Shown here one piece after another: positions 34,330-64,000 of a DNA stretch of 64,000 bases (position 1 is the stretch's first letter; each line of letters starts with the position of its first letter). The notes beneath the pieces are model-generated. The model searched no databases. It worked only from the letters and a program-made list of their open reading frames with translations, and had not been told where the DNA came from. The stretch comes from Qipengyuania pacifica (GTDB taxonomy: Bacteria > Pseudomonadota > Alphaproteobacteria > Sphingomonadales > Sphingomonadaceae): the NCBI RefSeq assembly GCF_019857205.1, contig NZ_JAHWXO010000009.1, positions 62,001 to 126,000 on the forward strand, given 5' to 3'. The translations under genes and the position numbers were made by a program.

Positions 34330-34347
34330 GATCGAACAACTACCGTA

Positions 34348-36687
34348 TCAAGCCATTTCACTTTCCAGGCCCCGCCTTTTGCGGAAGATCCGCATGATCC
34401 GGTCCTTGATCGAAGGCGGCGCGTACAGGGTATCCGAATAGTAATCAGACGAATCGACGTAAAACTGGATCGCATCGCCATATTGCCGGCGCGCATGTTC
34501 TTTGTAATCGACATGATCGAAGACGACGCCATCGGCGCGCCCGGAAAGGGTTTCCAGGGTTGCGTTCATCTGCTCGATCGTCGTCCGTCCCCAGCGCGAA
34601 ACGACCAGGGTGTGATCGGTAAAGTCGCACATTGCCCGGGCATCCCGCACAGCAAGGGCGGCAGGAGCATTGATGATCAGGAGGTCGAAGTGGTTCTTCA
34701 GCTCCGCTAGCAGGTGCCGCAAGCTCTGTGCGTTCAGAAGGGCGGCCGGGTTATCCACCGGCTGCTTGGCGCTAAGCAATACGATCCGCCCCTCATCCTC
34801 CGGCCCTTCACTCTGACCCACGGACTGATCGATACCGTCTGGTGCCTTGAGCAGCGCCGAGTGATCATCCAGCAGGCTTTGGAGGCTTGCATGGCCCGAA
34901 AGTACGTCGACAATATCGGGTGTATCGAGATTGCTCTGAACGTTCTTCAGCAAACCCATAGCGCGAAGGTCGAGATCGACCAGCACCACGCTTTGCCCCA
35001 TGACCTTGGCTGCAGCGGCCAAGGTTAGGGAGACGGTCGATTTGCCGTCGTTTGGAAGCGGGCTCGTGATGAGCACGGATTGAGAACCGCTCTTCGTGCG
35101 CAATGCCCGCATCTCCGAATAGGTAGCCCGCGCAGCTTCCGCAAAGAGCGATTGCGGGCTCTGGATAACCGGGCTCTCGCCGATTTGGTCGGATAGCCCC
35201 GAATCGATGCGCGGTAACATGCCGAGAGTCGGCAGCCCGAAGTGGCGCGCGACCTGGGCCGAAGTCCTCACGCGGCCGTCGGCCAGTTCCAGTCCAAGCG
35301 CCATCATCACCGCCAATGCACCCGACCCCAGCATTGCGAGCAGCGTAAGCTTCAGTGGTTCTGGCGATATGCGGTCAAAGTTAGCCACGGCAGGTGAAAC
35401 GACGGTTGTGTTCACTCCTTCGAGTTGCATCTGCGCGCGAACCTGCTCGATGCGTTCGACTATCGCGGAAAATGCCGCGTTCGCAAGCGCATCGTTGCGC
35501 TCAAGCTCGGACAGACGGACCGAATTTTCGTTGTTTTGAAAAGCCTGCGATTGAACCGCAGCAAGCGTGCCCCGCAATCGCCCGGCCCGCGCCGCATCCT
35601 GCGCAGCCTGGCTGCGAGCAACCTCGCGCATTTGTGCCGCATCGGCATTGGCAACCGCCTGCGCAGCTGCCTGGGCCTGGGCTCGCTGCTGCGCCAGCGC
35701 GGACTCGACTGACGACAGTTCGGAAGTCACGCGCACGACGTCAGGATGGTTGGATCCGAAGGTCGCGCCCAGCCGGGCACGTTCGGCAACCAGCGTCGCC
35801 TGTTGACGCTGAAGTTGCTCCACCGCGGCCGATGTCGCCTGTGCCGTACTGCGCAGGCCGGCTGCATTCGCGATGACGGCGCTTCGGGAAGAAGAGCCTG
35901 CGCTATTGGCGCTCGCCGATGCTGCCTCTGCGGCAATTTGGTTCATATACGACAGATTTTCATTCGTCCCCAAACCGAACGGCATTCGCGCATCCCGGCG
36001 GAACTCCGCGAGTTCGGTCTTGGCATTTCGTGCTGCCTCTTCACGATCCGCGCGCTCGGCAAGCAGCGATTGCAGCAACTCTTCCCTCTGCTCGGTTCCA
36101 CGGCGCGTTCGCACCTTAGCGACAGATTCGGGATATTGATTGGCAATCCTCGCGGAAAGCTCAGGAGATTTTGTCGTAACGGTGACTTCGATAAGATCGG
36201 AACTCGGCTCGCTCGTGACGGTCAAGGCGCTCAGAAGCGTATTGATGGCCTGATGCATTTGCGCCGCTTTTTCTTCCGGAAATTCTCCGACCTCCGCACG
36301 GAAATCCGGATCGCTGAGAAGATCTAGATCTTCCACTACCGATTCAGCCGACGACCGCGAGCGATAAAGGCGAACCGCATTGACCACGCGCACTTCGTTG
36401 CGATTGCTGATGTCGGCCTGATTGATCCCGACTTCGTCGAGCAGCTGCACCTGTACCTGTGCGGAGGAGCTGTAGAGATTCGGTGACAAGAGCTGATACA
36501 CAAGAACCGAAATTGTGACCGCGGCGATCGTCACCACAATCAGTTTCTTGTGACGCTCCAGCAGACGGACAAAATCGCGCAGGGATAACGCGTGATGCGT
36601 CGCGGCCTCCGGCCGGTAGGTCCATGGGAGCCTTCGTTCCGCAGGCGGATGGTTTTCGAACTCGCTGACTTCTACTAGATTTGCCAT
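34348..36687 (-). CDS. Polysaccharide co-polymerase with fused BY-kinase domain (Wzc/GumC type)
   Basis: A 779-residue inner-membrane protein. Wzz-type transmembrane helices lie near residues 42-60 and 440-460, and between them is a long periplasmic coiled-coil region (AQQRAQAQAAAQAVAN). The C-terminal ATPase has a Walker A SPLPNDGKST near residue 545 and a Walker A-prime VVLVDLDLR. A tyrosine-rich tail follows (YGDAIQFY, DYYSDTLY, five Tyr). It should control chain length and link to the outer-membrane export channel. The Walker B position reads FDLLIINAPAA, with Asn where Asp is usual, so kinase activity may be altered. ATG 36687 is preferred to the TTG at 36693. Confidence 0.9.
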   Translation of the reverse strand: MANLVEVSEFENHPPAERRLPWTYRPEAATHHALSLRDFVRLLERHKKLIVVTIAAVTISVLVYQLLSPNLYSSSAQVQVQLLDEVGINQADISNRNEVRVVNAVRLYRSRSSAESVVEDLDLLSDPDFRAEVGEFPEEKAAQMHQAINTLLSALTVTSEPSSDLIEVTVTTKSPELSARIANQYPESVAKVRTRRGTEQREELLQSLLAERADREEAARNAKTELAEFRRDARMPFGLGTNENLSYMNQIAAEAASASANSAGSSSRSAVIANAAGLRSTAQATSAAVEQLQRQQATLVAERARLGATFGSNHPDVVRVTSELSSVESALAQQRAQAQAAAQAVANADAAQMREVARSQAAQDAARAGRLRGTLAAVQSQAFQNNENSVRLSELERNDALANAAFSAIVERIEQVRAQMQLEGVNTTVVSPAVANFDRISPEPLKLTLLAMLGSGALAVMMALGLELADGRVRTSAQVARHFGLPTLGMLPRIDSGLSDQIGESPVIQSPQSLFAEAARATYSEMRALRTKSGSQSVLITSPLPNDGKSTVSLTLAAAAKVMGQSVVLVDLDLRAMGLLKNVQSNLDTPDIVDVLSGHASLQSLLDDHSALLKAPDGIDQSVGQSEGPEDEGRIVLLSAKQPVDNPAALLNAQSLRHLLAELKNHFDLLIINAPAALAVRDARAMCDFTDHTLVVSRWGRTTIEQMNATLETLSGRADGVVFDHVDYKEHARRQYGDAIQFYVDSSDYYSDTLYAPPSIKDRIMRIFRKRRGLESEMA

Positions 36688-36831
36688 GATCAACAGCCTG
36701 TTACGCCTCTTGCAGAGGCGGCTTTCCGAGGAAATTCGACGGTCAACATTGTGCTGGAAGGCGACCGGTTGTCATCTGACCATCGGTATTGAAGCAGAGT
36801 TATTCAGGTTAGCCCATTTTGATATGTAGAC

Positions 36832-36856
36832 CGCAAAGCATCATCGGAGCTTTGCG
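36832..36856 (-). other. Inverted repeat after the beta-barrel gene
   Basis: CGCAAAGC and GCTTTGCG arms of eight bases around a nine-base loop lie about 34 bp past the stop of the minus-strand beta-barrel gene. There is no T run on the minus strand, so it is a poor intrinsic terminator. It may slow RNase or mark the operon gap before the co-polymerase gene. Confidence 0.35.
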
Positions 36857-36889
36857 CGTACGAAATAACGCCAAGACCTTCGTTCGATC

Positions 36890-38122
36890 TTACAAACGAA
36901 CTCTCACGCCCACCCCCGCTTGAAACCGATTGTACTCATCGAGCGGATCGTCACCGCTGCGGGTCCCGTAGCTTGCCCTTCCAAACACCGACAGCCGACG
37001 GTTAACGAGATATTCCAGGCCGCCGCCAACGCGAACGCGATCCTGCCTGACATTTGAACCAACGAACTTCGTTCGCTCCCAACCAATCTCGGCTGATCCA
37101 AGAAGGTTATGGCGAATCTCCTGATCGACCGACAAACCGATTCTCGTTTCGTTGCGCGTCGAGCCACCTGCTCGAAATGATGCGACGTCGCCGCTGAACA
37201 GATTGAGATTAAGTGCAGTTCGCTCTCGCGGCCGATAGGTCAAAAGGCCCTGCATCGAAAAGCCGGTCCGGTCGGGGCGTAAGTCATCGTCGGCTTTAAG
37301 GCGAAAAACACCTGCACTGACACCGCCGCTGATCAGGCCACCATCAGCAAATCGGATCCCAACCATACCGCCAATGGTCGATACGTCACGGTCGACGTTC
37401 GTAACAGCCTCGGGCAGGCGGAAATTCAGCCGGTTATAATATCCCGTGCCGGTGAAGTAGAACGGCCCGCCAGGGCGATACCCCACCGTCAGTCTGGCAG
37501 AGTAGCTTGAGTAGTCGCGATCATCGTCGATGGGATCGAGTGCGTTGACATTTCGTGCGTCTCCTACCGCCTCGATCAGAAAGCGCGAGCCTTGCCGCGT
37601 GTATCCCGCACTACCGCCTGCAATGCGATAGATACGCGGGCCGATACCCTGTACCCTTCTCGCTTCGGGGTCGCCGCGATCTTCGATTGCGCGGTCGATC
37701 GATCCGGTCAGGAAAAGTGCTTCACCTTCTCTCGGGCTAAACCGGGTTGTCAGTGTCGCATTATATGCCTCGGCATTCTCGCTGGTGAAATCGGCATAAC
37801 GACGAGCGTCCAACTTCCCCGAAAGAGACGTGGTGAAGGAGCCAGCAGCATGTTCGATCTCAGCGTAAGGCCGAATTCGCGCGATAAAGTCACTCCGAGC
37901 AGCGACCGGTTCCGCAAACACGTTGCTATTGTATTCACCATCAGCCTCGGTACCGGCCTTAAGGGTGAAAGGGCCGACGCGGATTGGCGACTGGCGATAT
38001 TCGGGATCCTTCGCAAGGATCGCCGGGGCCGTCGAACCGATCTCCTGGGCGCTGACAGGGCTAGCGATGCCCGAGACTGCGCACGCTGCCGTCAGGGTAA
38101 CCCAGAACCTGCCATTTCGCAT
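36890..38122 (-). CDS. Outer-membrane beta-barrel protein of the exopolysaccharide export system
   Basis: A 410-residue protein from the ATG at 38122, which overlaps the stop of the export lipoprotein gene (TGATG). A signal peptide ends at PVSAQE. The rest consists of alternating polar and hydrophobic strands typical of an outer-membrane barrel, for example FTTSLSGKLDARRYADF, GPFYFTGTGYYNRLNF and RLSVFGRASYGTRSG. It resembles the beta-barrel proteins (BBP2 type) that accompany GumB/Wza-like lipoproteins in sphingan loci. It probably helps anchor or release polymer at the outer membrane. The chain ends in RVRL rather than the usual aromatic residue. Confidence 0.8.
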   Translation of the reverse strand: MRNGRFWVTLTAACAVSGIASPVSAQEIGSTAPAILAKDPEYRQSPIRVGPFTLKAGTEADGEYNSNVFAEPVAARSDFIARIRPYAEIEHAAGSFTTSLSGKLDARRYADFTSENAEAYNATLTTRFSPREGEALFLTGSIDRAIEDRGDPEARRVQGIGPRIYRIAGGSAGYTRQGSRFLIEAVGDARNVNALDPIDDDRDYSSYSARLTVGYRPGGPFYFTGTGYYNRLNFRLPEAVTNVDRDVSTIGGMVGIRFADGGLISGGVSAGVFRLKADDDLRPDRTGFSMQGLLTYRPRERTALNLNLFSGDVASFRAGGSTRNETRIGLSVDQEIRHNLLGSAEIGWERTKFVGSNVRQDRVRVGGGLEYLVNRRLSVFGRASYGTRSGDDPLDEYNRFQAGVGVRVRL

Positions 38123-38700
38123 CAGAACCACCGTTCATAGACCCTGATACGATCGCCAGGCTGAATTAAAGTATCCTCACTCGCTTTGGAGCGAACCTCC
38201 TGACCATTTACGGTGCGGACGACTTCGACCTGGCCCTCTTGCGCGCGATAGGTGTAGCCACCGGCCGCCGAAATTGCCGAGAGTACGGTCATACCCTGCC
38301 GATAATTGATTTCGCCGGGCGAGTTCACCTCGCCGATCACGTAGAAGGGACGCAGCGCCCCCGGTTGCACCGAGATGATCGGGTTCTTCAGGAGTTCCCG
38401 CGCCCGGAACCCCTCAGCGATGCGGTTTTCGACCTCCCGCACGCTGAGCCCAGCAACTTTCACCTCTTGCAGCAGTGGAAGAGAAATCGTGCCGCTGCTG
38501 TCGATGATGTAGGACCGGTCTGCTTGCGCAACATCCTGGATCGTCACAAGGAGTTCGTCGCCAGGCTGGAGCCTATACTCGGACGCCGAAGCGGCGGATA
38601 CCGGCGGCAGGCTCCCCAAAGGGGACGAACACGCACCGAGCAGCGCAAATGCTGCCAAGAAGGTCATTGTCAGTACGAGTTCTTTCGATCGTTGCATCAT
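38122..38700 (-). CDS. Polysaccharide export lipoprotein (Wza/GumB-like OPX protein)
   Basis: A 192-residue outer-membrane lipoprotein. The signal peptide ends in LLGAC, giving a lipidated C24. The Poly_export domain follows (YRLQPGDELLVTIQ, SGTISLPLLQEVKVAGLS), and one SLBB domain carries FYVIGEVNSPGEINYRQGMTVLSAISAAGGYTYRAQ. It lacks the long C-terminal helix of E. coli Wza that spans the outer membrane; short OPX proteins usually need a separate barrel, and the next gene encodes one in an overlapping arrangement. Confidence 0.92.
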   Translation of the reverse strand: MMQRSKELVLTMTFLAAFALLGACSSPLGSLPPVSAASASEYRLQPGDELLVTIQDVAQADRSYIIDSSGTISLPLLQEVKVAGLSVREVENRIAEGFRARELLKNPIISVQPGALRPFYVIGEVNSPGEINYRQGMTVLSAISAAGGYTYRAQEGQVEVVRTVNGQEVRSKASEDTLIQPGDRIRVYERWF

Positions 38701-43738: not shown

Positions 43739-43744
43739 TGAGCG

Positions 43745-44656: not shown

Positions 44657-44658
44657 CA

Positions 44659-52229: not shown

Positions 52230-52477
52230 GATGATTACTGAGCCTGAGACCTCGCCCGCAAAAGTGGTTAGCCGAGGGCAGACGCTGCAGTCCGCCGGGG
52301 CGAGTGTCCATCGCTCACCCGGATAGCGCGTCGGCGAAGTTTCGCTGCCGCCGAGGGGCACTCCCCCATAGGGCGTAGGCATCGACCCAAAATTGCCGGT
52401 CCGAGGCGCTAGAGAGCCGCGGCGATAGCCAAACCCGTCTTTGGCTGCGGAAAAGCGATACAGTACATTTCGGTGTG

Positions 52478-53842
52478 ATGAGCACTGTCTTCGAAGATGC
52501 GCGCCTCGACGCGCCGGCCGCGACCAGACGCGCGGCCGAAAGGAGGTCCCGGCAGGGGGCCCCGCTCTCGATTTCAGGCGTTCTGTACGGGTTCCTGCTT
52601 GTCGGCATCTTCTCCGTATCCTGGCAGATCGCGCGGCCGGGAGACCTGAACTTCACGATCTCCGACGGCGCGTTTCTGGTCGTCATCCTGGGTCTGGTGG
52701 CCACATCGCGCTTCAACCTGACGCCCATGGAGGGGTTTTCGCCGGCCTGGATCTTTGCATTGATCCTGATGTTGGGGAGCCTGTTCGTCAGCACCGTCGT
52801 CAACGGTGAGGTGATGCGATGGCTCGTCGTCGCACTGCAATACAGTTTCGCGTACCTGCTGCTGCCGATGATGTTCGCCAGTTTCGATCAAAAGACGCTG
52901 CAGCACTGTGTGGTGTTCTACATCCTCGGCGTCACGTTTTCGCAAGCGTTCGGCAACATCGCCAATATCTTCTTCGACTACGCCGATACCGCGCCAATAT
53001 TCGGAAACAATTTCATCACCGGCATGGGGCGGCTGGGGGCGTTTTCGGGGAACGCCAACAACAATTGCGCCATGGCCGGCTTCGCGTTGGTACTGCTGCT
53101 TTATGCGATCGATCGGGGCCTCATGAACCGGCTGCTCGCGCTAGTGTGCGGCGTGTTCCTGTTGTGGGGTATCATCGCCTCGGCAAGTTTCGGCGGCTTT
53201 GTCATATGCCTGAGCGCGGTATCGCTGGTAATGATCATTCGATCGCCGCAATGGGCGATCCTCGCATTGATGACGTTGGTGGGGCTCGGTGCGGCGTATT
53301 TCGCCAGCGGTTTCCCCTTACCTGCGCCGTTCGAACAGCGCGTCTATGGAGCACTTGCGGGAGGCGGGCTCCAGGAGGCGGGCACCTTTGCCGGACGCAT
53401 GGAACTGGCAAAGGAGGCTTGGCGCATGTCCGGCGATACGCTGTTCTTGGGGCTCGGCGTAGACAGCTTCAGGGTCGTCAGCATCCATCAGGCGCCAGTC
53501 CACGTCTTTCCTCTGCTGCTGTTGACCGAGGGCGGGTTATCGGGACTGATCGGCTTCCTGGGACTGCTTGCGATACTGTGGTTCCGTGCCTTGACCAACA
53601 TGTCGGTCGATCCGCGCCGCGGGATCATCTGCGTGGGAGTCCTGCTGATCTTCACGCTATTCACGCTGACCGTTCCGCACATGTACGCGCGGCTGTGGGT
53701 CGCTCCGGTATTCCTCGCCATACTGACTTGCACGCGCGTTGAAATTCCGCGCGCTCGGCCACGGCATCGCGACGAGCTTCAGGCAAGCCCGGCGCCAGTC
53801 CAGAAATCCGATGACAGCGCGACCTGGGGATCGCCTTCATGA
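52478..53842 (+). CDS. O-antigen-ligase/Wzy-like polymerase
   Basis: A 454-residue inner-membrane protein with about eleven hydrophobic helices. A large periplasmic loop is placed between residues 280 and 350, with GLGVDSFRVVSIHQAPVHVFPLLLLTEGG, the Wzy_C-type region (N-x-x-L-family His/Arg loop). It should polymerise lipid-linked repeats on the periplasmic side. Poor sequence conservation in this family means polymerase and ligase cannot be told apart; the setting with co-polymerase and flippase favours polymerase. A GTG three bases upstream is a possible start. The stop overlaps the flippase start (ATGA). Confidence 0.83.
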   Translation: MSTVFEDARLDAPAATRRAAERRSRQGAPLSISGVLYGFLLVGIFSVSWQIARPGDLNFTISDGAFLVVILGLVATSRFNLTPMEGFSPAWIFALILMLGSLFVSTVVNGEVMRWLVVALQYSFAYLLLPMMFASFDQKTLQHCVVFYILGVTFSQAFGNIANIFFDYADTAPIFGNNFITGMGRLGAFSGNANNNCAMAGFALVLLLYAIDRGLMNRLLALVCGVFLLWGIIASASFGGFVICLSAVSLVMIIRSPQWAILALMTLVGLGAAYFASGFPLPAPFEQRVYGALAGGGLQEAGTFAGRMELAKEAWRMSGDTLFLGLGVDSFRVVSIHQAPVHVFPLLLLTEGGLSGLIGFLGLLAILWFRALTNMSVDPRRGIICVGVLLIFTLFTLTVPHMYARLWVAPVFLAILTCTRVEIPRARPRHRDELQASPAPVQKSDDSATWGSPS

Positions 53843-55194
53843 ACAAGCGTGTTGCTATGCCCGGCACTTCGGAAAAGTCGGTCTTGCGATCACGTGTGAA
53901 AAGCGTGCTCCATCTGCTGACCGGAAATCTCGGCAATGCTCTGGTCATGATCGGAAGCATCGCATTTGCCACACGCGCGCTGGGACCGGAGGCCTTCGGC
54001 GTACTCGCACTGACATTGGCCGTCGGGCGCGTGTGCGAAAGGGTTGTGCGTTTTGAATCCTGGCAACCGCTCGTTCGGTACGCCGCTACAGAAGAAGGCG
54101 CGTCCGACCCGGAAAGAATGTCGCGCCTGTATCTCTTCGGCCTGCTTCTCGACGCGGTCGGAGCGGCGGTGGCCGCATTGCTAACCGTCCTTGCAGGCTT
54201 CATTCTGACATCGTTTTTCGACTTTCCTCCGGAAATGGTTCCGTTGGTGGCGATTTATGCGATCGCGATCGCCTTGAACCTGCGCGGCATGTCATCGGCC
54301 GTCCTGCGCATGGCAGGCATGTTCCGGACAATGGCGTATATCGTCTTTCTGGCTGGCTTGCTGCGCCTGCTTCTAGCGGCAATTTTCTATTGGATGGGAA
54401 GCGGACTGATGACGTTCGTCTGGGTTTGGACCATTTGCCAAGTGGTCGATGCCCTGATTTACAACTTCATCGGGTTTCGCCAGCTCGCCCAGCAAGGCAC
54501 TCCATCCCCGTTTCGTGCGCGCATGGGTAATCTGCACAAGGACTTCCCCGGTTTTCTGGGCTTTGCCTTTACCACGAACGCATCGAGCGCTTTGCGCACG
54601 ATTACCCATGAAGCAGATACGCTGATCGTCGGTGCGCTGACTGACAGCACGGAAGCGGCCGGTTTCTACCACATCGCAAAGCGAATGGCGAAAGTCGCCA
54701 TGAGCTCTGGCGAGATGATACAGATGGTTGTCTATCCGGATCTTGCACGAATGTGGGCCGGAAAAATCACCGAAAGCTTCCGCCGGACGGTTGTCGGCGT
54801 TCAAGGACTGCTTGCTGTGATCCTGGGCGGCGTGATCCTAGTTACAATAGTGGTCGGCAAACCGATTATCGGACTGGCATTCGGGTCTGCGTTTACGCCC
54901 GCCTATGCAATCCTGGTCGCCCAGTTGTTCGCGGTGTTTCTCATCATGCATTCGGCCCCATCCCGGTCGGCCTTACTGGCCATGAACCGCCCGCAATATG
55001 CACTTGGCGCGTCGGCATGTTCGACGGCTGTGTTCCTTGCCATCGCCATCAATACAATTCCGGCTTACGGTGCGATTGGCGCAAGCTTTGCGCATATCGG
55101 GTTCGGTGCAGTCAATGCGATCATGCTGGATGTCGCAATGTGGAGAAGCCTGAGGCGGGCTTCCGCTTCACAGGTTGCGCCGGAAGCCTCCTGA
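53839..55194 (+). CDS. Wzx-type polysaccharide flippase
   Basis: A 451-residue polytopic inner-membrane protein of the MATE/MOP-like oligosaccharide flippase group with about twelve to fourteen hydrophobic helices. LLTGNLGNALVMIGSIAFATRALGPEAFGVLALTLAVG is the typical first region, and ADTLIVGALTDSTEAAGFYHIAKRMAK the central one. It should move the undecaprenyl-linked repeat to the periplasm. It is coupled to the polymerase gene by a four-base overlap and ends 14 bp from the convergent asnB-type gene. Confidence 0.88.
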   Translation: MNKRVAMPGTSEKSVLRSRVKSVLHLLTGNLGNALVMIGSIAFATRALGPEAFGVLALTLAVGRVCERVVRFESWQPLVRYAATEEGASDPERMSRLYLFGLLLDAVGAAVAALLTVLAGFILTSFFDFPPEMVPLVAIYAIAIALNLRGMSSAVLRMAGMFRTMAYIVFLAGLLRLLLAAIFYWMGSGLMTFVWVWTICQVVDALIYNFIGFRQLAQQGTPSPFRARMGNLHKDFPGFLGFAFTTNASSALRTITHEADTLIVGALTDSTEAAGFYHIAKRMAKVAMSSGEMIQMVVYPDLARMWAGKITESFRRTVVGVQGLLAVILGGVILVTIVVGKPIIGLAFGSAFTPAYAILVAQLFAVFLIMHSAPSRSALLAMNRPQYALGASACSTAVFLAIAINTIPAYGAIGASFAHIGFGAVNAIMLDVAMWRSLRRASASQVAPEAS

Positions 55195-55208: not shown

Positions 55209-57152
55209 CTAGTGCTTCATCCAACGGCCATGCCACATGCTGAAACAGATGCAGTTCCAAAGATGGAAGCCCCAGTTGCGCCGGCCCGAACGATGTTCAG
55301 TCCACAGCTTGCTTACCTCATCGCTGTCGAAATAACCTACCTGATCCACCTTGGCAGCGGCCAGATGTTCGTCGGCCAAGTTGCGAAGTGGACCTCGTAG
55401 CCATTCGTTGAGAGGCACCCCGAAGCCGCGTTTCGGCCGGTTGATCATGTGTTCCGGCACGCGCCGCGCAAGCAGCTTTCGCAATGCCATTTTCCCGATC
55501 TCGCCATTTTGCATCCGCAGGCTTGCAGGCATTCTCCATGCGGTCGAAATGAGCTCATAATCCAATAGCGGCGCGCGAACCTCCAGGCTTGCCGCCATCG
55601 ACGCGCGATCCACCTTCACCAGAACATCATCCGGCAGGTAACAGATCGCGTCCAGATACATCATCTGTTCCAACTGGCCGAGCCCTGGAGGCAGAGGGCT
55701 TGTCGTCAAAGGGCTGGAACTTGCCGCTCCCTCCCCCGTCCATTGCGAGTTGAATTGTTCGTAGCGATGGCGGAAGTCGTGCTGACCGACAACCGCGAGT
55801 ATTTTCTTCATCCGGTCACCGCTCAGTTCTTCCGCGTGACCTGCGGAGGTGAGCCGCCGGGCCGCTTTGGAACCGGCATCGACGAGCCACAACGGAGCTT
55901 TGTCAAACGCCTGCCACGCTGCGTTTGGCAACCGCTTTGCCAGCCGCTCCATCGCAAGCATTCGCGAGTAACGTTTATAGCCGCCGAAGAATTCATCACC
56001 ACCATCACCGGAAATTGCGACCGTGACCTCGGACCGGATCAGGCGCGAGATCAGCAAGGACGGGATCTGGGAAGGATCGGCAAATGGTTCGTCGAAAATT
56101 TCCTGCAGCTCACCAACAGCGCCGAGCGCCGCATCAGGGTCAACAGGCAGTTCGGTGTGATGCGATCCGATATACGCGGCAAGTTCTGCCGCATCGGCTG
56201 TCTCGTCGAATTCGCTTTCCGCAAAGCCGACCGTAAAGGTCTTTGCGCGACCACCGAGCTGTTCCTGCATGACGGCGCATACAAGACTGGAATCCACCCC
56301 GCCAGAGAGGAAGGCGCCGACGGGGACGTCTGAGACCAAGCGCCTTTCAACCGCCGCGCCCAGTTGATCTTCGAGCGCAGTCAAAGCCTCGGCCTCATCT
56401 CCGAACCGAGCTTCCGCCCCTTCTTGCGAAGCGTCGTACATGCTCCAGTACTGGACTGCTTCCTCGTGAATCGCCTCCGGATCAGGCGCCTTCCCATCGA
56501 TCGAGAAAACGAGATAGCTCGCAGCCGGTAACTTTCCGACATGGCGGTAAATCGACAATGGCGCTGGCACATAACCCAGCCGCATATATTGCGCTGCGGC
56601 GCGTGGATCGATTTGCAAATGGCTGAATTTCGGATGGCAGCGGAGTGCCTTCAATTCCGATCCGAAAGCAAGTGTGCTGCCACTGATGCCGATATAAAGC
56701 GGCTTCTTTCCCAAGCGATCGCGCGCAAAGGCCAGTTGCCGCTTCTTTCGGTCGTAGACAGCCAACGCGAACATACCGTTGGCCCGCCCGAGCGCCCCCG
56801 CAAGACCGAAATGCTCGATCGCCTCGAGTAGAACCTCCGTGTCGGATGTTCCTCGGAAATCCACACCGAGCGCGGTCAGTTCGTTTCGTACGGACTGAAA
56901 ATTGTAAATTTCGCCATTGAAAACGATGACATGGCGACCGGACGCCGATTCCATCGGCTGCGCACCGGTTTGCGATAGATCTATGATCGCAAGGCGGCGA
57001 TGCCCCAGTCCAATCCGACCTTCCGCTTCCAGTGCGGAGCCACCGGCGTCCGGTCCACGGTGCGTCAGGGTATCCCTCATGCTGTCGAGCAGGCGGAGAG
57101 GATCAGCACATCGCTGACGATCAAAATCCAGAAAGCCAGCAATTCCGCACAT
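55209..57152 (-). CDS. Asparagine-synthetase-like amidotransferase (AsnB/WbpS type)
   Basis: A 647-residue enzyme. The N-terminal glutaminase begins MCGIAGFL (catalytic C2) and has HRGPDAGG and HRRLAIIDLS. The synthetase domain has the ATP loop LSGGVDSSLV, VAISGDGGDEFFGGY and the late KPKRGF-type segment (RPKRGFGVPLNEWLRG). In polysaccharide loci such enzymes are thought to amidate the carboxyl of a uronic acid (for example WbpS of Pseudomonas) rather than make asparagine. Ugd is present in this locus, which supports uronamide formation. An asparagine role cannot be excluded. Confidence 0.87.
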   Translation of the reverse strand: MCGIAGFLDFDRQRCADPLRLLDSMRDTLTHRGPDAGGSALEAEGRIGLGHRRLAIIDLSQTGAQPMESASGRHVIVFNGEIYNFQSVRNELTALGVDFRGTSDTEVLLEAIEHFGLAGALGRANGMFALAVYDRKKRQLAFARDRLGKKPLYIGISGSTLAFGSELKALRCHPKFSHLQIDPRAAAQYMRLGYVPAPLSIYRHVGKLPAASYLVFSIDGKAPDPEAIHEEAVQYWSMYDASQEGAEARFGDEAEALTALEDQLGAAVERRLVSDVPVGAFLSGGVDSSLVCAVMQEQLGGRAKTFTVGFAESEFDETADAAELAAYIGSHHTELPVDPDAALGAVGELQEIFDEPFADPSQIPSLLISRLIRSEVTVAISGDGGDEFFGGYKRYSRMLAMERLAKRLPNAAWQAFDKAPLWLVDAGSKAARRLTSAGHAEELSGDRMKKILAVVGQHDFRHRYEQFNSQWTGEGAASSSPLTTSPLPPGLGQLEQMMYLDAICYLPDDVLVKVDRASMAASLEVRAPLLDYELISTAWRMPASLRMQNGEIGKMALRKLLARRVPEHMINRPKRGFGVPLNEWLRGPLRNLADEHLAAAKVDQVGYFDSDEVSKLWTEHRSGRRNWGFHLWNCICFSMWHGRWMKH

Positions 57153-57247: not shown

Positions 57248-58477
57248 CTAAAGCGAGGGCGCCGATCGCAAGAGGCTTGCAGCTTCGCCGATAACCGACG
57301 TCCTTTGAATCTCTTCCAGGCAAGCCAAGATTTGCCGGGATTCTGCGGCGTAGTTCACGCTCATCCTGTCGACCTGCTCGATGATCCGTCCTGCATCCGA
57401 ATCCCTGATGTCGAACACATATTCGTCCTGCTGGAAGTGAGCCGCCAAGTCGATATATTTGCTTGCCCAGCCGAGGATGATGGCCGGTACACCGCTGCGG
57501 TAGGCGAACACCACCGAATGATAGCGGGAGGCAACGACGTATTTGAAACGACCGATTATATCGATCAATTCCGGGCTGGAGTATTCCCCACTTATCAGAC
57601 CTACCTTGTCTCTGTTTTCCGTTTTGCCGAGGACGCTTTCGACCAGTCTGAAGTCGGCAGTGGAGGTGTTGAGAATGAACACCCGCTCGCCTGCAGTGAT
57701 CAGACGGTCCAGCATGCGCGAATAGAGGTCCAGCACCGCTTCGGGCTTTCCAATCCTGAATACATTTTCGTTGATGATGAAGCCCACGGATCCCGGGGGC
57801 GGATAGCTTACTGTCGCGGCGTCGTAAGAACTGAGGATGTCGCGCGCTTGCGGAAATACCTTCTCGCGGATCACCATATCTGCCGACAACTCGACATTGC
57901 CAAGCCCGAGAGACCGTAGACACCCGTACCCCTCACGCTCGCGCGCGTAGATGCGCGTGCAGTAGTCCAGTTCCTCCCGAACCTCCTCGAGGAATGCCGC
58001 ATCATCGTCCTCACCCCAGTCGAAAGGGCCGAAGCTCTGGGGCATCAGGATAATCTGTTTCTTATATTCCCTGGCGATACGGATCGTCTGAAGGAGCAGC
58101 CGGCCCCCACCCTTCCCCCAGCCGGATCCCAACGTGTACCCGCTCGCATCGAAGATAGCGTCAGCGTCTCGCAGAGCGCTGTCCATCTCGGTAATCTTAC
58201 CGGACCACTTTCCAGTCTTCCGCCACATGCCCGCGACCATCGCCAGGACATCCCCTAGCCAAGGCACACGGTTGAGCCGGTATTTGAAAACCAGGCGCGT
58301 GAAATCGTCATATGGAAGTAGTTCGAACTGATACTGAGCAGGGTCGTCGTACTTATTGGCAAACCCGACGACCTCACAGCCCGGATAGATGGACTTGAGC
58401 CCGTAACAGAGCGACAGGAACATGGCTTGAGAGCCCTTGTTTCGCATCTGAACGCCGGTCACGATGAACTTTTTCAT
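57248..58477 (-). CDS. Polysaccharide pyruvyl transferase family protein
   Basis: A 409-residue protein from the ATG at 58477; a start at 58606 would add 43 unconserved residues. The N-terminus VTGVQMRNKGSQAMFLSLCYGLKSIYPGCEV and the C-terminal RFKYVVASRYHSVVFAYRSGVPAIILGWASKY are family hallmarks. Such enzymes transfer pyruvate from phosphoenolpyruvate to a sugar, forming a ketal that adds negative charge. Proteins with this fold can also do other transfers, so activity is inferred. It lies 95 bp downstream of asnB on the same strand, which means it is transcribed first. Confidence 0.86.
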   Translation of the reverse strand: MKKFIVTGVQMRNKGSQAMFLSLCYGLKSIYPGCEVVGFANKYDDPAQYQFELLPYDDFTRLVFKYRLNRVPWLGDVLAMVAGMWRKTGKWSGKITEMDSALRDADAIFDASGYTLGSGWGKGGGRLLLQTIRIAREYKKQIILMPQSFGPFDWGEDDDAAFLEEVREELDYCTRIYAREREGYGCLRSLGLGNVELSADMVIREKVFPQARDILSSYDAATVSYPPPGSVGFIINENVFRIGKPEAVLDLYSRMLDRLITAGERVFILNTSTADFRLVESVLGKTENRDKVGLISGEYSSPELIDIIGRFKYVVASRYHSVVFAYRSGVPAIILGWASKYIDLAAHFQQDEYVFDIRDSDAGRIIEQVDRMSVNYAAESRQILACLEEIQRTSVIGEAASLLRSAPSL

Positions 58478-58756
58478 ATTGATTGAAGGCCTTCTCAAAA
58501 TTCCGATCATCCCGAGAGATGAGGGTTCGGGCGTGCTTCCACCGACCGAAGTGGTCTCGTGCCGAGCAACTTCTGCTCGATTTGAGCCAGCTGGCCTCGA
58601 CACCATCCCGCTCCGTCATAGAATTGCAGAACTGTGGTATTCCGGCGGGCGTGAAGCTGGCACAGCCAGAGCTACCAATCGCTTTGACCGATCACATTTG
58701 GGAAAAGCGATTAGTCCTTTATAACCGCCGGCATACGTTGGCGGCCGCCCGAACTC

Positions 58757-59602
58757 TCACGCCACTTTCGCCTGATCCGGAGAGCTGTACCAATGGCTGA
58801 GCGGCTGGCCACTCATCCGTTCCAGAGCTTCAATGGAGGGAGCGTAATAATCGCTCAGGCGCTGTCTGAGTTCGTCGGTGAGCGGTGGGTACTCGATCTC
58901 GGTTGCGATGAGGCCTCTCGCCGCCTCGAACGCGGGGGCGCCCCGCAATGGACGAACGATCGGCTTGAGCCAATCCAGCCGCTTGCGCAGGCGCCCCGGT
59001 ACGAGCGGGGTCGTCTTGTCCTTCACCTTTGATTGCGACTTTACAGCGAGCGGACGTGGCGAAAGCCCAAGATGGGCGCGCACCTGTGTCAGCTGTGCCT
59101 TCGGGCTTTTCGAGACGCCTTCGAAAAACAGGATGAGCATCCTCTCACGCCCGAATAAATCGATGAACCGCTCGAGGTGCGAAGCGTATCTTCCGGACTT
59201 CAGGATCTGCTCGCTCTCCCCCAGAGCAGGGTTCAGATATTTCTCTATATCGCCCCCGACCTGTCCCCGACGATACAGCATGCAATAGCTGGAGTAAGCC
59301 CGTTCTACCGGATGCCGAAGCTGCGCGATCAGTTTCGCTTGCGGGACGTCACGATGAAGTCGGGCAGCGGCCTCCGGGACATAGAGATACGAGTTCGATT
59401 TCTCGCCAACAAGCTTGTCCCGCCGTCCTTCAGCGAATTGCGACAGGTACCAGTCTGTTCCGCGAGCATATTCCCTCGAGAAATAATGAAGTTCCGGGTC
59501 TGGCATGTAGACCGAGGGATCGGACTGCAGCTGTGTTTGCAGCCATGTCGTCGCCGACTTTGCGGCGCCGATAATGACGAAATCGATGTCCTTTAACTGC
59601 AT
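58757..59602 (-). CDS. PAPS-dependent sulfotransferase
   Basis: A 281-residue protein from the ATG at 59602, preceded by AGGGA with good spacing. The PAPS 5'-phosphosulfate loop is FVIIGAAKSATTWLQTQL and the 3'-phosphate motif is RHPVERAYSSYCMLYRRG. YMPDPELHYFSREY is the typical active-site region. The family sulfates hydroxyls, so this probably sulfates the polysaccharide. No PAPS synthesis genes are visible in the window. It is transcribed towards the pyruvyl transferase gene, with a 279-bp gap between them. Confidence 0.9.
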   Translation of the reverse strand: MQLKDIDFVIIGAAKSATTWLQTQLQSDPSVYMPDPELHYFSREYARGTDWYLSQFAEGRRDKLVGEKSNSYLYVPEAAARLHRDVPQAKLIAQLRHPVERAYSSYCMLYRRGQVGGDIEKYLNPALGESEQILKSGRYASHLERFIDLFGRERMLILFFEGVSKSPKAQLTQVRAHLGLSPRPLAVKSQSKVKDKTTPLVPGRLRKRLDWLKPIVRPLRGAPAFEAARGLIATEIEYPPLTDELRQRLSDYYAPSIEALERMSGQPLSHWYSSPDQAKVA

Positions 59603-60172
59603 TGCCTTCCCTAACCTTTGCCCATCGCGCTGGCCGCTGGAGGCCAACGCATTCGACGAGACGATGGATGTGCAACTTGAGCTTTCCAACGGAAAGACGG
59701 ACTGCACCCTTCATATCCCACTGGCGCCGCACCTTCCCAGGAAGATGCGCCATTAACGCTAGTCATGGGCAGAAACCCGATCAAGGCAGGGCAATGGCGA
59801 TCCTGGCGCATCGACTGACCCGCCTACCCGCGCCGGGCGCAAAAGATATGCTCAGGAGCATCCGCGCCGATCAGCCCATCACTTTCCTAAGCAGTTGAGA
59901 AGTAGCATTTTTATACCTCTTCTCAGTGGGCCGAAGCCTTCGATCTTGGTTTGTAGTTTGGCCGCTTGAGGCTTCGAGATCGTCATCTGACCCGTTTGCA
60001 GTACCTCTGATGAACCCATGCCATTCATCGTGACCAACGCGATATACCGATGCACCTCTTTCTCAACGAAATGAAGTTGGGCATCGCATCGGCATCAGTG
60101 TCGGCACACCGTCTGGCGGACGACCGGCCAATCGCTATCGCTTTGGGAATATAAAAATAGGGCGGATTTGCT
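59603..60172. other. 570-bp gene-free stretch before the MBOAT module
   Basis: The largest non-coding gap in the window, between divergent sulfotransferase and MBOAT genes. Short frames on both strands have no protein-like composition. A seven-pair inverted repeat (TGAGAAG/CTTCTCA, 59896-59902 with 59919-59925) lies in the middle. A TATAAA (60150-60155) a few bases before the MBOAT start resembles a -10 element, with no clear -35. It probably holds promoters for both genes. Confidence 0.5.
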
Positions 60173-61741
60173 TTGATATTTACCGATCCGATATTTTTAT
60201 TTGTATTCCTGCCGATCGTGTTGGTCGCCTTCTATGCGACAGCGTCGCACTTCGGACGGAATTACGCGCTCGCCTTACTCTTCGTAGCGTCGATAATATT
60301 TTACATCCCTCACTCGATGATGTCGGTCATCCTCTTGCTGATCGCACTTGCCGTAAACTTCTCGGTAGCAATGATCATAACGAAGATGGATGATCAGGAT
60401 AAGAATAGGCGTTCAATATACTTGTTCGGCCAATTTTATAACATAGCCTCCCTCTGCTACTTCAAATACAAGATTGTCACCCTTTTGTTGGGGCCGAAAT
60501 CCGGTCTCATCGTAGACATTGCAGGCATAGCAATTCCTGCCGGAATATCCTTTTACACATTCCATCAGGCAGCATTCCTGGCCGATGCATATGCCCGCGA
60601 GAAGAACGTTACACAGTTCTTGGGAAGACTTGGATCGATCAAGTCAGTATTTTCGGCATTTTGTCGCTACGGCGCTTTTGTGAGCTTCTTCCCCCAGCTG
60701 ATCATCGGGCCGATCACCTATCTCAGCGAGTTCAATCCGCAAATTCAGTCGAAGCGGTTCTTGAGGCTCAACCCGATCGATCTCGCCGTTGGATTGACCT
60801 TCATCTCGATCGGAATGTTCAAGAAGGTAGTTCTGGCTGACAATCTTGCACCGACGGTCGACGTCGTCTTCAGCGCAGCGAATGTAGGTGCGGAAATTCA
60901 CCCGGTTCAGGCCTGGATCGGTGCACTTGCCTACATGGCCCAGCTCTACTTCGATTTCTCCGGCTATTCGGACATGGCGCTCGGCCTCGCCCGCATGTTC
61001 GGATTGCGATACCCGATAAACTTCTTCTCGCCGTTCAAAGCCAACGGGATCATCGATTACTACCGGCGATGGCACATGACCCTTACGCGCGTGATCGCTC
61101 GGTTTCTCTACACGCCCCTATCGGTCGCGGGAACGCGCTACAGCATGTTCAACCGGCTTGCGCCCATTCCGGCTCACTTGCTCAGCCTGTGGCTTCCAAT
61201 GCTCGTCAACTTCCAGATCATTGGCCTGTGGCACGGTGCATTGTGGACCTTTTCCGTTTTCGGACTCATGCACGGATTCTGGTACGCGCTCGAAACCGAA
61301 GTTCGGGCGTCGAAATGGTACAAGAGCGTTCGCAAAACCACTTCGCCGCTGGTCATCGGGTTTATCGAAAGGGCGGTCTTCTTCCTGCCACTTTGCCTTA
61401 GCCTTGCAATGTTTCGTTCGGAAAGCGTCGCGGGTGGCTTTCATCTGTTCGGGCAAATGTTTGGCACATCGTTCGATGCCCCTTCCGCTTTCAACATGCG
61501 CGAACCCGTCGTCACACTCGCCGTGGCGTTTTCCATCATCTATCTTTGCCCAAACAGCGTAGAACTGATGCGCCGATATCGCCCTGCGATCATGACCTAC
61601 GACAACAAGAGCTATGGGCCGGCCTTTCTTCGCGAACTGTGGCGTCCCGGATGGATACAGGCGGCGGCGATTTCCGGTCTTGTCCTCGCATCGCTCTACT
61701 ACGTGTCGCGGCAGCCACCATTTCTGTATCAGGGGTTCTGA
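60173..61741 (+). CDS. MBOAT-family O-acyltransferase (AlgI/DltB-like)
   Basis: A 522-residue inner-membrane enzyme with about ten or more hydrophobic helices. It starts at a TTG preceded by AGGGCGG with seven bases of spacing; the N-terminus MIFTDPIFLFVFLPIVL matches AlgI-type starts, so the rare start is probably right. The two MBOAT histidine regions are present: YYRRWHMTLTRVIARFLYTPL and the catalytic-type GLWHGALW. These proteins pass an acyl group across the membrane to a polysaccharide or teichoic acid. The gene is followed by a SGNH-like anchored protein (3 bp gap), a carrier protein and an FkbH-like enzyme, the order expected of a DltB-like transferase. Confidence 0.9.
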   Translation: MIFTDPIFLFVFLPIVLVAFYATASHFGRNYALALLFVASIIFYIPHSMMSVILLLIALAVNFSVAMIITKMDDQDKNRRSIYLFGQFYNIASLCYFKYKIVTLLLGPKSGLIVDIAGIAIPAGISFYTFHQAAFLADAYAREKNVTQFLGRLGSIKSVFSAFCRYGAFVSFFPQLIIGPITYLSEFNPQIQSKRFLRLNPIDLAVGLTFISIGMFKKVVLADNLAPTVDVVFSAANVGAEIHPVQAWIGALAYMAQLYFDFSGYSDMALGLARMFGLRYPINFFSPFKANGIIDYYRRWHMTLTRVIARFLYTPLSVAGTRYSMFNRLAPIPAHLLSLWLPMLVNFQIIGLWHGALWTFSVFGLMHGFWYALETEVRASKWYKSVRKTTSPLVIGFIERAVFFLPLCLSLAMFRSESVAGGFHLFGQMFGTSFDAPSAFNMREPVVTLAVAFSIIYLCPNSVELMRRYRPAIMTYDNKSYGPAFLRELWRPGWIQAAAISGLVLASLYYVSRQPPFLYQGF

Positions 61742-61744
61742 GCC

Positions 61745-62920
61745 ATGGCCCGGCCAGAACACTTCGCAAGCGTCGCTGAATCGCCGCCTCCGCACTCGAC
61801 CGGGTTCAGGCTGACCGATACTCGCTGGCGGGCAGCGCGACCGATGATCCTGGCCGCCGCTCTCATTACTTTTCTATATCTACTGCTTGCGAGCGTCGTC
61901 ATCGCAGTCGATCCACATAATGTTTATCGGTGGGGCGCAAATCCTCGAATTGAGCCTGACGACACACCCAGAGACATGGTCATCGACTGGATCGACGTTG
62001 CTACGAAGGACCCGTCGTTCAACACGTTCCTCGTAGGGAGCTCAATCACGGCGATGTATTCGCCGGAATACCTGAAGGCAATTCTCGGGCCTGAGACGCG
62101 CGCCGTAAACCTGAGCTATGGCGGCCCCCGCCCCAAAGATCGCGACCTGGTCCTGGATCGGTTAATCGACAACCCAGGCGTACAACACGTCATCCTTACG
62201 TTTGACTGGACTTACATGGTGGGGCCCGACGTTGCGAACTCGGGTTTCCCGACATTCCTGTACGACGGGGACATCACCAACGATCTACGGATGGTGAACC
62301 TTCCGACAATTCGGAAAACGTTCGAAATCATGAGCGGGAAGCTGACCTACGATAATCCGGACGATGCGGAATATCAGACTTACGTGAAGAACATGTATGT
62401 CAAATTCCAGCGGCCGAGCGAGATTGCCAAGCTAGGTCGCATGATTGAGCGCAACCGCAAAGACATCGACGCGAAAAGCGGAAAAGACTGCCACAGCTTT
62501 CGGTCTGTGAACGAACAACTCGTCCCCGATGTGCGGTCTCTTTCTGGGAGAGGAGTCAGGGTCGATATCTTGTTCCCGATTGAGTCTTACGCTTTTTATT
62601 ATGTAAGGCAGAACGACATCAGTCCGACACTTCTCGATGAGCAAATGATTGCGCGGCGCTGTCTGGTAGATGCCGTCAGCGATTTATCTGGCGTCAGGGT
62701 CTTTGCATTAGATGGCGACCCCACGGTGGCGGGGGACCTCGCGAACTTTCGCGAAGTTGGCCACGCGTATGACCCAGCGATTTTGCAGCGATTTGTTTCT
62801 GCGATGAAAACCGGAAAAGACCGGATAACTAGGGCAAATTTTGCAACCTACGAGCGCGACATCCGCAATGCGGTAAAAGAATATCGCATCGCGAACAGCT
62901 TTCCGATCCACGAAAATTAG
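61745..62920 (+). CDS. Membrane-anchored SGNH/DltD-AlgJ-like protein
   Basis: A 391-residue protein with a cytoplasmic N-terminus, one transmembrane helix (about 34-54) and a periplasmic domain. The block-I-like motif is FLVGSSITAMYSPEYL (GSS at 98-100), the place of the SGNH serine; a late REVGHAYDP could supply the Asp-His end. It resembles the DltD/AlgJ/AlgX group that works beside MBOAT proteins in O-acylation, but similarity is low and I give no firm family. It starts 3 bp after the MBOAT stop. Its likely role is to take the acyl group from the MBOAT and place it on the polymer. Confidence 0.72.
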   Translation: MARPEHFASVAESPPPHSTGFRLTDTRWRAARPMILAAALITFLYLLLASVVIAVDPHNVYRWGANPRIEPDDTPRDMVIDWIDVATKDPSFNTFLVGSSITAMYSPEYLKAILGPETRAVNLSYGGPRPKDRDLVLDRLIDNPGVQHVILTFDWTYMVGPDVANSGFPTFLYDGDITNDLRMVNLPTIRKTFEIMSGKLTYDNPDDAEYQTYVKNMYVKFQRPSEIAKLGRMIERNRKDIDAKSGKDCHSFRSVNEQLVPDVRSLSGRGVRVDILFPIESYAFYYVRQNDISPTLLDEQMIARRCLVDAVSDLSGVRVFALDGDPTVAGDLANFREVGHAYDPAILQRFVSAMKTGKDRITRANFATYERDIRNAVKEYRIANSFPIHEN

Positions 62921-62949
62921 GCCCAGATCGTCACGAAAAGGTTTCACAG

Positions 62950-63195
62950 ATGTCCGAGCAGAATGTCATTCTCGAAAAAATTACAGCCATTATTCGCGAC
63001 CTGTTCGACGAGTATGACGGGCCGGTAACGATGGAGACAACTGCAAACGATGTGGCGCAGTGGGATAGCCTGTCGCATGTCCGCCTGATGGTGATGATCG
63101 AAATGGAGCTAGGAGTACATTTCAGCACATCGGAGATGCAAAGCTTCAAGAATCTGGGGGATCTGGTCAACGCAGCCGCGAAGCAGGTCGGATGA
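62950..63195 (+). CDS. Stand-alone acyl carrier protein
   Basis: An 81-residue carrier protein with the four-helix pattern of the PP-binding family. The phosphopantetheine serine is S40 in QWDSLSHVRLM. It is not the fatty acid synthase AcpP (no DSLDTVEL context, different charge pattern). Its size is like DltC. It lies between the SGNH-like gene and the FkbH-like gene and overlaps the start of the latter by four bases (ATGA), so FkbH is the probable loading enzyme. Confidence 0.92.
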   Translation: MSEQNVILEKITAIIRDLFDEYDGPVTMETTANDVAQWDSLSHVRLMVMIEMELGVHFSTSEMQSFKNLGDLVNAAAKQVG

Positions 63196-64000
63196 CCTCC
63201 GAAAATTTCCCTTGGCGACCTCCTCTTTCTTCTAACTGGGGGGAACGGCTCAAAATTTTCGAGGCTGCGCTCATCGAGGGCCGCGATCTCGACTTTCACG
63301 CGGTCAGATCGCTAGCGGGTCAGCGACTTACCACCCGTGAGCAACTGCGGCTTGAACGGTTTGCGAACAAACTGCTCAAGTCGGACATACCTAGCCCGAC
63401 TTTTGCCCCTGTTTCGATAGGTCTGCTTGGAAATAGGACACTTAGCTATCTACCTGCCCCTTTGGCCGCTGCGGGTCTGGCGCGGGGCCTTGCCATATCG
63501 TCAGTCGAGGCGCCCTACGACAGCGTTGCAAGTTACGCTTATTCGCCTTCGGACTGCTTCGGTAAGCCTCTGGATGCTGTGCTCGTTGTACTCGATGAAA
63601 CCGCCTTCGCGAACAAGCGTCCAATTCTCGACCGCGCCGCAGAGGAGGAAGCTGTCGCAGCCGCTGAAGACCTCTTTTCTGCGCTTGCCGCCGCCACCTT
63701 GGAAAAGTCACAATGCCGGCCAATCTTTGCAACCCTTCCAGCCGCACAACAGGTTTCATCGGCTGAACTGGCCACGCCTGGTACCAGCGCGCGCTTCAGA
63801 CATCTGGTCAACCTCAAGCTTGCCGAAGGGGCGATGCTCGGCAAATGGCTGATATGGGATCAGGCCGCACTGGCCAGCCGCGTAGGAATTGAAAACTGGC
63901 TCGATCCGATCCGTTACCATGCAGCCAAGATACCGTTTCGTATCGAAATGTGTCCTTTAGCATCGGACAGCATCGCCGCGGTATTAGCTGCAATGAAAGG
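63192..64000 (+). CDS. FkbH-like enzyme, N-terminal part (cut by the window edge)
   Basis: The frame opens with ATG at 63192, overlapping the carrier-protein stop, and stays open to the edge (269 codons). The visible part is the N-terminal domain of FkbH-like proteins, with IGLLGNRTLSYLPAPLAAAGLARGLAISSVEAPYDSV and the PLDAVLVVLDE strand. The catalytic HAD-IIIC phosphatase domain, where D-x-D-x-T would lie, is beyond the window. FkbH enzymes dephosphorylate 1,3-bisphosphoglycerate and load the glyceryl group on a carrier protein. The call rests on this N-terminal domain and on its coupling to the ACP gene. Confidence 0.8.
   Translation, partial: MTSENFPWRPPLSSNWGERLKIFEAALIEGRDLDFHAVRSLAGQRLTTREQLRLERFANKLLKSDIPSPTFAPVSIGLLGNRTLSYLPAPLAAAGLARGLAISSVEAPYDSVASYAYSPSDCFGKPLDAVLVVLDETAFANKRPILDRAAEEEAVAAAEDLFSALAAATLEKSQCRPIFATLPAAQQVSSAELATPGTSARFRHLVNLKLAEGAMLGKWLIWDQAALASRVGIENWLDPIRYHAAKIPFRIEMCPLASDSIAAVLAAMK

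Follow-up and report, generated by a model that had tools for sequence, protein, structure and literature searches.

A candidate carrier-protein-fed MBOAT-SGNH acylation operon with FkbH as putative loader beside an exopolysaccharide cluster of Qipengyuania pacifica

The four-gene operon and its proteins

The DNA analysed here is a stretch of 64,000 nucleotides from Qipengyuania pacifica (the window), which corresponds to positions 62001-126000 of a 141,862-base contig in a 3.5-Mb genome. Its last part carries an operon of four + strand genes encoding a membrane-bound O-acyltransferase (MBOAT; 60173..61741, 522 residues), an SGNH-like protein (61745..62920, 391 residues), a stand-alone acyl carrier protein (ACP; 62950..63195, 81 residues) and FkbH (631 residues), the gene for which occupies 63192..64000 and continues past the window to 65087 (L002:9192-11087). 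A preliminary description of this DNA had listed the same set with gaps of 3, 29 and -4 bases, and the coordinates from 60173 to 65087 bear this out: the MBOAT and SGNH-like genes are 3 bases apart, the SGNH-like and carrier genes 29 bases, and the carrier gene overlaps the FkbH gene by 4 bases. The operon is flanked upstream by a sulfotransferase gene that faces away from it and downstream by a DUF2891 gene that faces it. The genome contains a single match to TIGR01686, the FkbH model, and a single match to the MBOAT family PF03062.

FkbH matches TIGR01686 with 290.7 bits (cut-off 146.65). The preliminary description had only its N-terminus; the rest of the gene completes the 631-residue protein, and the D-x-D motif expected of an HAD-IIIC domain is present as DLDNT (D279, D281, and T283). 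In an alignment of 120 proteins of 480-900 residues, the window FkbH among them, D281 and Arg550 are found in all 120 members, and D279, Lys364, Asp386, and Cys549 in 119 each. Its solved relative is BF1531 (3slr), reached by sequence with an E-value of 1e-54, and the predicted structure (mean predicted local distance difference test score, pLDDT, 79.6) matches the same phosphatase with an E-value of 3e-26 as well as GNAT-fold acetyltransferases. The protein is complete, with the HAD motifs, a GNAT-fold C-terminus, and the conserved Cys549. In OzmB-type enzymes, the acyl group is borne by a conserved C-terminal cysteine. The earlier proposal that FkbH takes the place of DltA agrees with the gene content of the genome, in which 23 matches to the DltA model TIGR01734 were found, the best with 160 bits against a cut-off of 559.85 and none reaching it.

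The carrier protein matches PF00550 with 22.6 bits (cut-off 20.8), and the serine of its DSL motif, which would hold the phosphopantetheine, is Ser40 (WDSL). Its score against the DltC equivalog NF003464 is 16.3 bits and does not reach the cut-off of 68.

The MBOAT matches PF03062 with 62.2 bits (cut-off 27), and its TTG start lines up with the methionine starts of its relatives. Against the DltB model TIGR04091 it scores 120.3 bits, below the cut-off of 375, and the only solved sequences that match it at an E-value of 0.001 or less are two DltB proteins. His354, in a WHG motif, is invariant in an alignment of eight sequences, as are F517, Y519, and F522 of the C-terminal FLYQGF, which conforms to the pattern FXYXXF. 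According to a published study (PMC12148441), PatA auto-acetylates the tyrosine of its own C-terminal FXYXXF motif, and a model in which this tyrosine passes the acetyl group to the SGNH partner PatB was supported. In the Dlt system the motif lies on the separate protein DltX and the carrier DltC is the donor. Non-Dlt MBOAT-SGNH pairs are described in PMC12148441 as lacking a carrier because they use acyl-CoA.

The SGNH-like protein has no Pfam match, the DltD family PF04914 included. In an alignment with eight relatives, the GxS motif is invariant, as are Gly98, Ser100, Asn122, Asp154, Asp323, and His340, and in each of the seven displayed rows the position three residues ahead of His340 holds Glu or Asp ([DE]xxH). 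These alignments, the predicted structure and the profile comparison with hhalign point to Ser100, Glu337, and His340 as candidate catalytic residues of a periplasmic acyltransferase. In the AlphaFold2 (AF2) model (mean pLDDT 69.3), an N-terminal helix, predicted to anchor the protein in the membrane, spans residues 25-55. A Foldseek search of this model against the PDB gave exclusively DltD or platelet-activating factor acetylhydrolase structures at ranks 1-11, an unrelated structure at rank 12, and PatB at rank 13, all with E-values above 0.01. When hhalign was run against a profile of ten proteins encoded beside MBOAT genes at other FkbH loci, the probability was 95.9% (E-value 6e-9) with GxS aligned to GxS and His to His, and this profile itself reaches DltD with an E-value of 8.5e-4. 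Another set of eight proteins gave 92.8% across the GxS region. Comparison of the protein and its family profile with solved structures yielded nothing useful; the only match, PrgE at an E-value of 0.006, was judged to be due to chance. We take the protein to be an SGNH acyltransferase on good but incomplete evidence. Within its order it is rare, occurring in 3 of 296 genomes, that of Q. pacifica included, all of one genus.

Judged by these motifs and scores, the operon is a hybrid that combines a Dlt-style carrier and a Pat/Alg-style shuttle tyrosine on the MBOAT with FkbH as the putative loader. The dlt-like character assigned in the preliminary description therefore holds for the set of carrier, MBOAT, and SGNH-like protein and fails for a plain DltB-like MBOAT, since FXYXXF lies on the C-terminus of the MBOAT itself. 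A plain Dlt system was rejected on three grounds: the equivalog cut-offs are missed, no DltA in the genome exceeds its cut-off, and the C-terminal motif is part of the MBOAT.

Recurrence of FkbH beside MBOAT genes

To see the arrangement in a wider sample, 385 genomes of Alphaproteobacteria were surveyed, 37 of which, including that of Q. pacifica, contained a match to TIGR01686. In the other 36 genomes there are 35 MBOAT places and 42 FkbH places, a number that takes in four weak or short matches and treats two pieces of one gene in genome G327 as one. An MBOAT place lies within 5 kb at 17 of the 42 on the FkbH side, and an FkbH place is equally close at 17 of the 35 on the MBOAT side, where 0.14 co-locations would be expected at random placement. 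The identical four-gene order, which the preliminary description had proposed to look for in other sphingomonads, is present in two congeners (L009 and L010), in Sinorhizobium glycinis (L080), and in S. meliloti, where plasmid pSymB carries it (L187). The four-gene set is not a product of chance, because the order is kept in relatives and 17 co-locations stand against 0.14 expected; chance adjacency and a one-off curiosity were both rejected in this way. In the two congeners, the same four genes are accompanied by genes for a sulfotransferase, a pyruvyl transferase, and AsnB. Variants of the order also occur: a metagenome-assembled genome of Hyphomicrobium (L081) has an extra methyltransferase gene between the SGNH and ACP genes, and Sphingomonas mali has the order ACP-FkbH-MBOAT-SGNH-SGNH.

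The surroundings were analysed for 40 of the 42 FkbH places (all except the fragments in G474 and G562), several of which end at contig ends, and carrier and MBOAT genes were counted by searching all open reading frames with our own profiles. An MBOAT gene lies within 5 kb at 16 of the 40 loci. At these 16 loci, the carrier gene is within 3.5 kb of the MBOAT gene in 14 cases, the MBOAT gene is on the FkbH strand in 11, and the MBOAT ends with a strict FXYXXF in 11. Among the MBOATs not linked to FkbH in the same genomes (n = 18, all taken), 17 have FXYXXF and one is close to a carrier gene; part of this contrast in carriers is built in, as 24 of the 40 FkbH loci have an ACP gene within 3.5 kb whether or not an MBOAT is present.

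From 558 confirmed relatives in named genomes, the best 80 by likeness to FkbH were taken as a second set; it overlaps the class survey (L043/L127 and L059/L122) and hence gives no independent rate. MBOAT genes were found within 5 kb at 47 of these 80 loci, with a carrier gene within 3.5 kb in 38 and the same strand in 41 of the 47. The C-terminal motif was FXYXXF in its strict form in 34 of the 47 MBOATs and in a relaxed form in 43. The MBOAT-linked FkbH proteins of this set belong to Pseudomonadota, Acidobacteriota, Nitrospinota, Verrucomicrobiota, Planctomycetota, Synergistota, and others. Separately, VYxxF replaces FXYXXF in seven FkbH-linked MBOATs from Acidobacteriota and others (L084, L087, L094, L100, L101, L108, and L118), mostly as VYKAF or VYRAF, so that the tyrosine and the final phenylalanine are retained.

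A tree was built from 80 MBOATs of at least 380 residues, with identical copies taken once; after removal of the near-copy L147, 61 of its rows were linked and 18 unlinked. The method was a quick one and some branches are long; the tree shows clustering and not a single origin. The linked/unlinked label changes 6 times on the tree, compared with 16.4 times when shuffled, and none of 500 shuffles gave a value as low. One supported group (Shimodaira-Hasegawa-like approximate likelihood ratio test, SH-aLRT, 99) contains 39 linked rows and a single unlinked one, L185, and another linked group stands on long branches.

These results bear on the possibility that the MBOAT and SGNH-like protein are an ordinary O-acetyltransferase fed by acetyl-CoA, with FkbH and the carrier making a glyceryl block for another use, such as N-acylation of a sugar or a small metabolite. 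The carrier-free, acyl-CoA-using pairs described in PMC12148441 speak for this explanation, as does the frequency of FXYXXF among unlinked MBOATs. We nevertheless consider it unlikely: the ACP and FkbH genes overlap in the window within an order that is retained in Sinorhizobium, the FkbH-linked MBOATs cluster on the tree, and the genes annotated around the S. meliloti copy include no polyketide synthase or nonribosomal peptide synthetase.

The adjacent exopolysaccharide cluster and the likely acceptor

The operon lies beside an exopolysaccharide cluster that extends from 29.5 to 59.7 kb of the window, and the gene content of the cluster substantiates the exopolysaccharide locus that the preliminary description had placed here. 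Its genes encode a UDP-sugar dehydrogenase, an initiating sugar transferase, a Wzz/kinase, a BBP2 barrel, an export protein, and Wzy- and Wzx-like proteins, together with a PglF-like dehydratase, a DegT aminotransferase, a formyltransferase, a PIG-L deacetylase, glycosyltransferases, AsnB, a pyruvyl transferase, and a sulfotransferase. The genes at 33763..38700 (- strand; PF02397, PF02706, PF10082, and PF02563), which encode the initiating sugar transferase, the Wzz/kinase, the BBP2 barrel, and the polysaccharide export functions, are likely to serve the assembly and export of the acceptor polymer. On the + strand follow a Wzy-like polymerase/ligase (52475..53842; PF04932 with 25.0 bits, under the gathering score of 31.7) and a Wzx-type flippase (53839..55194; PF13440). 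Three genes near the operon, all on the - strand, encode the glutamine-hydrolysing asparagine synthase AsnB (55209..57152; PF00733), the polysaccharide pyruvyl transferase (57248..58606; PF04230), and the sulfotransferase that adjoins the operon (58757..59707; PF13469). In the two congeners, the sulfotransferase gene is kept beside the operon and the other two are kept near it.

The dehydratase, aminotransferase, formyltransferase, and deacetylase genes lie at 38857-45348, and this gene set suggests that the polymer contains an N-formylated amino sugar. At 50844-52382, inside the cluster and on the opposite strand, a protein that weakly matches a pectate-lyase model (24.7 bits, cut-off 24) is possibly a polymer lyase or epimerase. 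The preliminary description had also drawn a link to gellan and the sphingans, for which no support was obtained: no rhamnose set was present among the proteins scanned, which cover part of the window genes and were compared with no sphingan reference. The comparison with gellan may serve as an analogy only.

The copy on pSymB of S. meliloti has sequence identities to the window of 68% for the MBOAT, 62% for the ACP, and 64% for FkbH. The S. meliloti stretch matches 41 plasmid records; in 39 of them, among which are the query's own record and that of strain 1021, the match extends over 80% or more of the stretch. The copy of strain 1021 is at NC_003078.1:631205-636239. FkbH is encoded by a single reading frame in seven of the eight S. 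meliloti records read, those of strains 2011 and Rm41 among them, and by two overlapping frames in the eighth, strain 1021 (L189, NC_003078.1:628205-639239). In several GenBank records, the SGNH-like protein (L187:8875-10104) is annotated as a TonB-dependent receptor, for which a Pfam scan gives no backing. In record CP050561.1, the annotation places an IS630-type transposase inside the operon stretch.

The four S. meliloti genes are preceded by an lsr transport set, and a capsule synthesis gene is located about 5 kb downstream. The immediate surroundings of this copy, which lack an annotated polysaccharide gene, favour an acceptor other than the neighbouring exopolysaccharide, namely a lipid, a lipoprotein, or lipopolysaccharide; the MBOAT superfamily also acts on lipids and proteins. 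The pyruvyl transferase, sulfotransferase, and AsnB genes are nevertheless syntenic with the operon in the window and both congeners, a Wzx/Wzy-type cluster adjoins it in the window, and the SGNH-like partner resembles DltD/PatB. Such an acceptor appears quite improbable.

Proposed relay, its loaders and their meaning

The gene order, the complete domains, the conservation of catalytic-type residues, and the recurrence of the set are observed, and on this basis we propose that the operon encodes an MBOAT-SGNH system which is fed by a carrier protein and acylates an exported polysaccharide, with glyceryl supplied via FkbH (probability about 0.66). FkbH would take the phosphoglyceryl group from 1,3-bisphosphoglycerate, its HAD domain would remove the phosphate, and its Cys-bearing GNAT-fold domain would load glyceryl onto the phosphopantetheine of the carrier at Ser40. 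The MBOAT would then use His354 to transfer glyceryl from the carrier to its own Tyr519 in FLYQGF on the periplasmic side, from which the membrane-anchored SGNH protein would accept it on Ser100 and esterify hydroxyl groups on the polymer that the adjacent cluster produces. Each of these chemical steps, and the polymer as acceptor, follows the known functions of the families, and glyceryl as the transferred group is suggested by the usual product of the FkbH family. The glyceryl ester on the exopolysaccharide put forward in the preliminary description hence gains from the operon and the neighbouring cluster, keeps a family-based rationale for the glyceryl group, and loses its gellan link.

In its carrier-bound acyl donor, MBOAT, and putative SGNH-fold partner, the proposed system resembles Dlt (DltA, B, C, D, and X). 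It differs in that FkbH takes the part of the adenylating DltA, the shuttle motif is on the C-terminus of the MBOAT instead of DltX, the MBOAT and carrier fall below the Dlt equivalog cut-offs, and the locus is not one for teichoic acid. With the O-acetyltransferases PatA/PatB and AlgI/AlgJ/AlgX it shares an MBOAT with the conserved His and C-terminal FXYXXF and a separate, here SGNH-like, protein; those systems are said in PMC12148441 to work with acyl-CoA and no carrier, whereas a carrier and a loader are in the operon here. Tetronate and methoxymalonate pathways have glyceryl-ACP modules in which an FkbH with HAD and Cys-bearing C-terminal domains likewise stands next to a stand-alone ACP. 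The window differs in that its ACP is accompanied by a membrane acyltransferase pair, and its scanned neighbours include neither a polyketide synthase nor a FabH-like partner.

The relay might also run as proposed with a group that is oxidised or methylated on the carrier and is not plain glyceryl. Apart from the methyltransferase gene of the Hyphomicrobium locus, an FMN-dependent hydroxyacid dehydrogenase gene (L043:8817-10124) adjoins FkbH at a locus with ACP and MBOAT, where on-carrier tailoring is possible, and 6 of 69 MBOAT neighbours match Methyltransf_23. The window operon itself has no such gene, and the methyltransferase in the scanned part is at 48709-49659, in the polysaccharide cluster. 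For Q. pacifica, we regard an altered group as having little chance of being right.

Several observations weigh against the proposed relay. Methyltransferases or FMN hydroxyacid dehydrogenases at related loci would be able to change glyceryl on the carrier. No MBOAT is found within 5 kb at 24 of the 40 class-survey loci, and part of the carrier contrast is built in, as noted above. At the 16 loci with an MBOAT, its gene is on the other strand in five, no carrier is near it in two (L068 and L075), and the strict FXYXXF end is missing in five, one of which is cut by a contig end. Nine of the 47 MBOATs from the best 80 relatives have no carrier within 3.5 kb, and the linked MBOATs L047 and L112 are placed among unlinked ones on the tree. 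The SGNH assignment has no Pfam match behind it and the fold-search E-values are weak. A polymer acceptor is not evident at the S. meliloti copy, because the lsr transport set precedes the operon and the capsule gene is about 5 kb away. The account as a whole draws on sequence and family membership.

Of the unlinked MBOATs, L185 alone has a neighbouring carrier gene. At this locus (L185:3665-6718, genome and contig G477:C75), an MBOAT ending in FLYYQF is followed by a divergent amino acid--[acyl-carrier-protein] ligase resembling seryl-tRNA synthetase (SerRS) and then by a carrier of 76 residues. The ligase has the amino acid--[acyl-carrier-protein] ligase model as its best NCBIfam match (158 bits, cut-off 357). 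A 568-residue open reading frame upstream has a receiver-like match at its start. In the class sample, the ligase model matched 19 places in 18 of the 385 genomes, and MBOATs were searched for in 16 of these 18 (all but G311 and G431). An MBOAT lies within 1 kb of three ligase places (G477:C75, G477:C1, and G664:C1), none of which belongs to the nine that score above the ligase cut-off. The presence of a divergent amino acid:carrier-protein ligase in the place of FkbH beside a related MBOAT suggests that the loaders are exchangeable. A broad class of carrier-fed MBOAT-SGNH surface acylation systems, in which FkbH would take glyceryl directly from an acyl phosphate of glycolysis, with neither ATP nor CoA needed for activation, and a divergent SerRS-like ligase would provide an amino acid, has in our view an even chance of being real. 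If it is, FkbH-ACP pairs that stand as orphans and amino acid:carrier-protein ligases linked to MBOATs would both join the machinery of envelope decoration.

The membrane relay itself is known, and its feeding by FkbH was not found in the searchable literature. No paper joining FkbH to MBOAT in polysaccharide acylation was retrieved from a partial coverage that includes few subscription journals and no bioRxiv; the papers retrieved for FkbH together with MBOAT concern cyanobacterial peptides. With a Dlt-like carrier joined to a Pat/Alg-like MBOAT and probably fed by FkbH, the operon and its relatives appear exceptional among MBOAT-SGNH systems. If the proposed relay is correct, it would decorate a polysaccharide with a glycolytic intermediate without the ATP cost of activation, and it would provide a candidate enzyme set for the glyceryl esters of bacterial polymers. 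It would also give a function to genes labelled as HAD hydrolase, acyl carrier protein, or even TonB-dependent receptor, and the copy in the symbiont Sinorhizobium meliloti is a tractable one.

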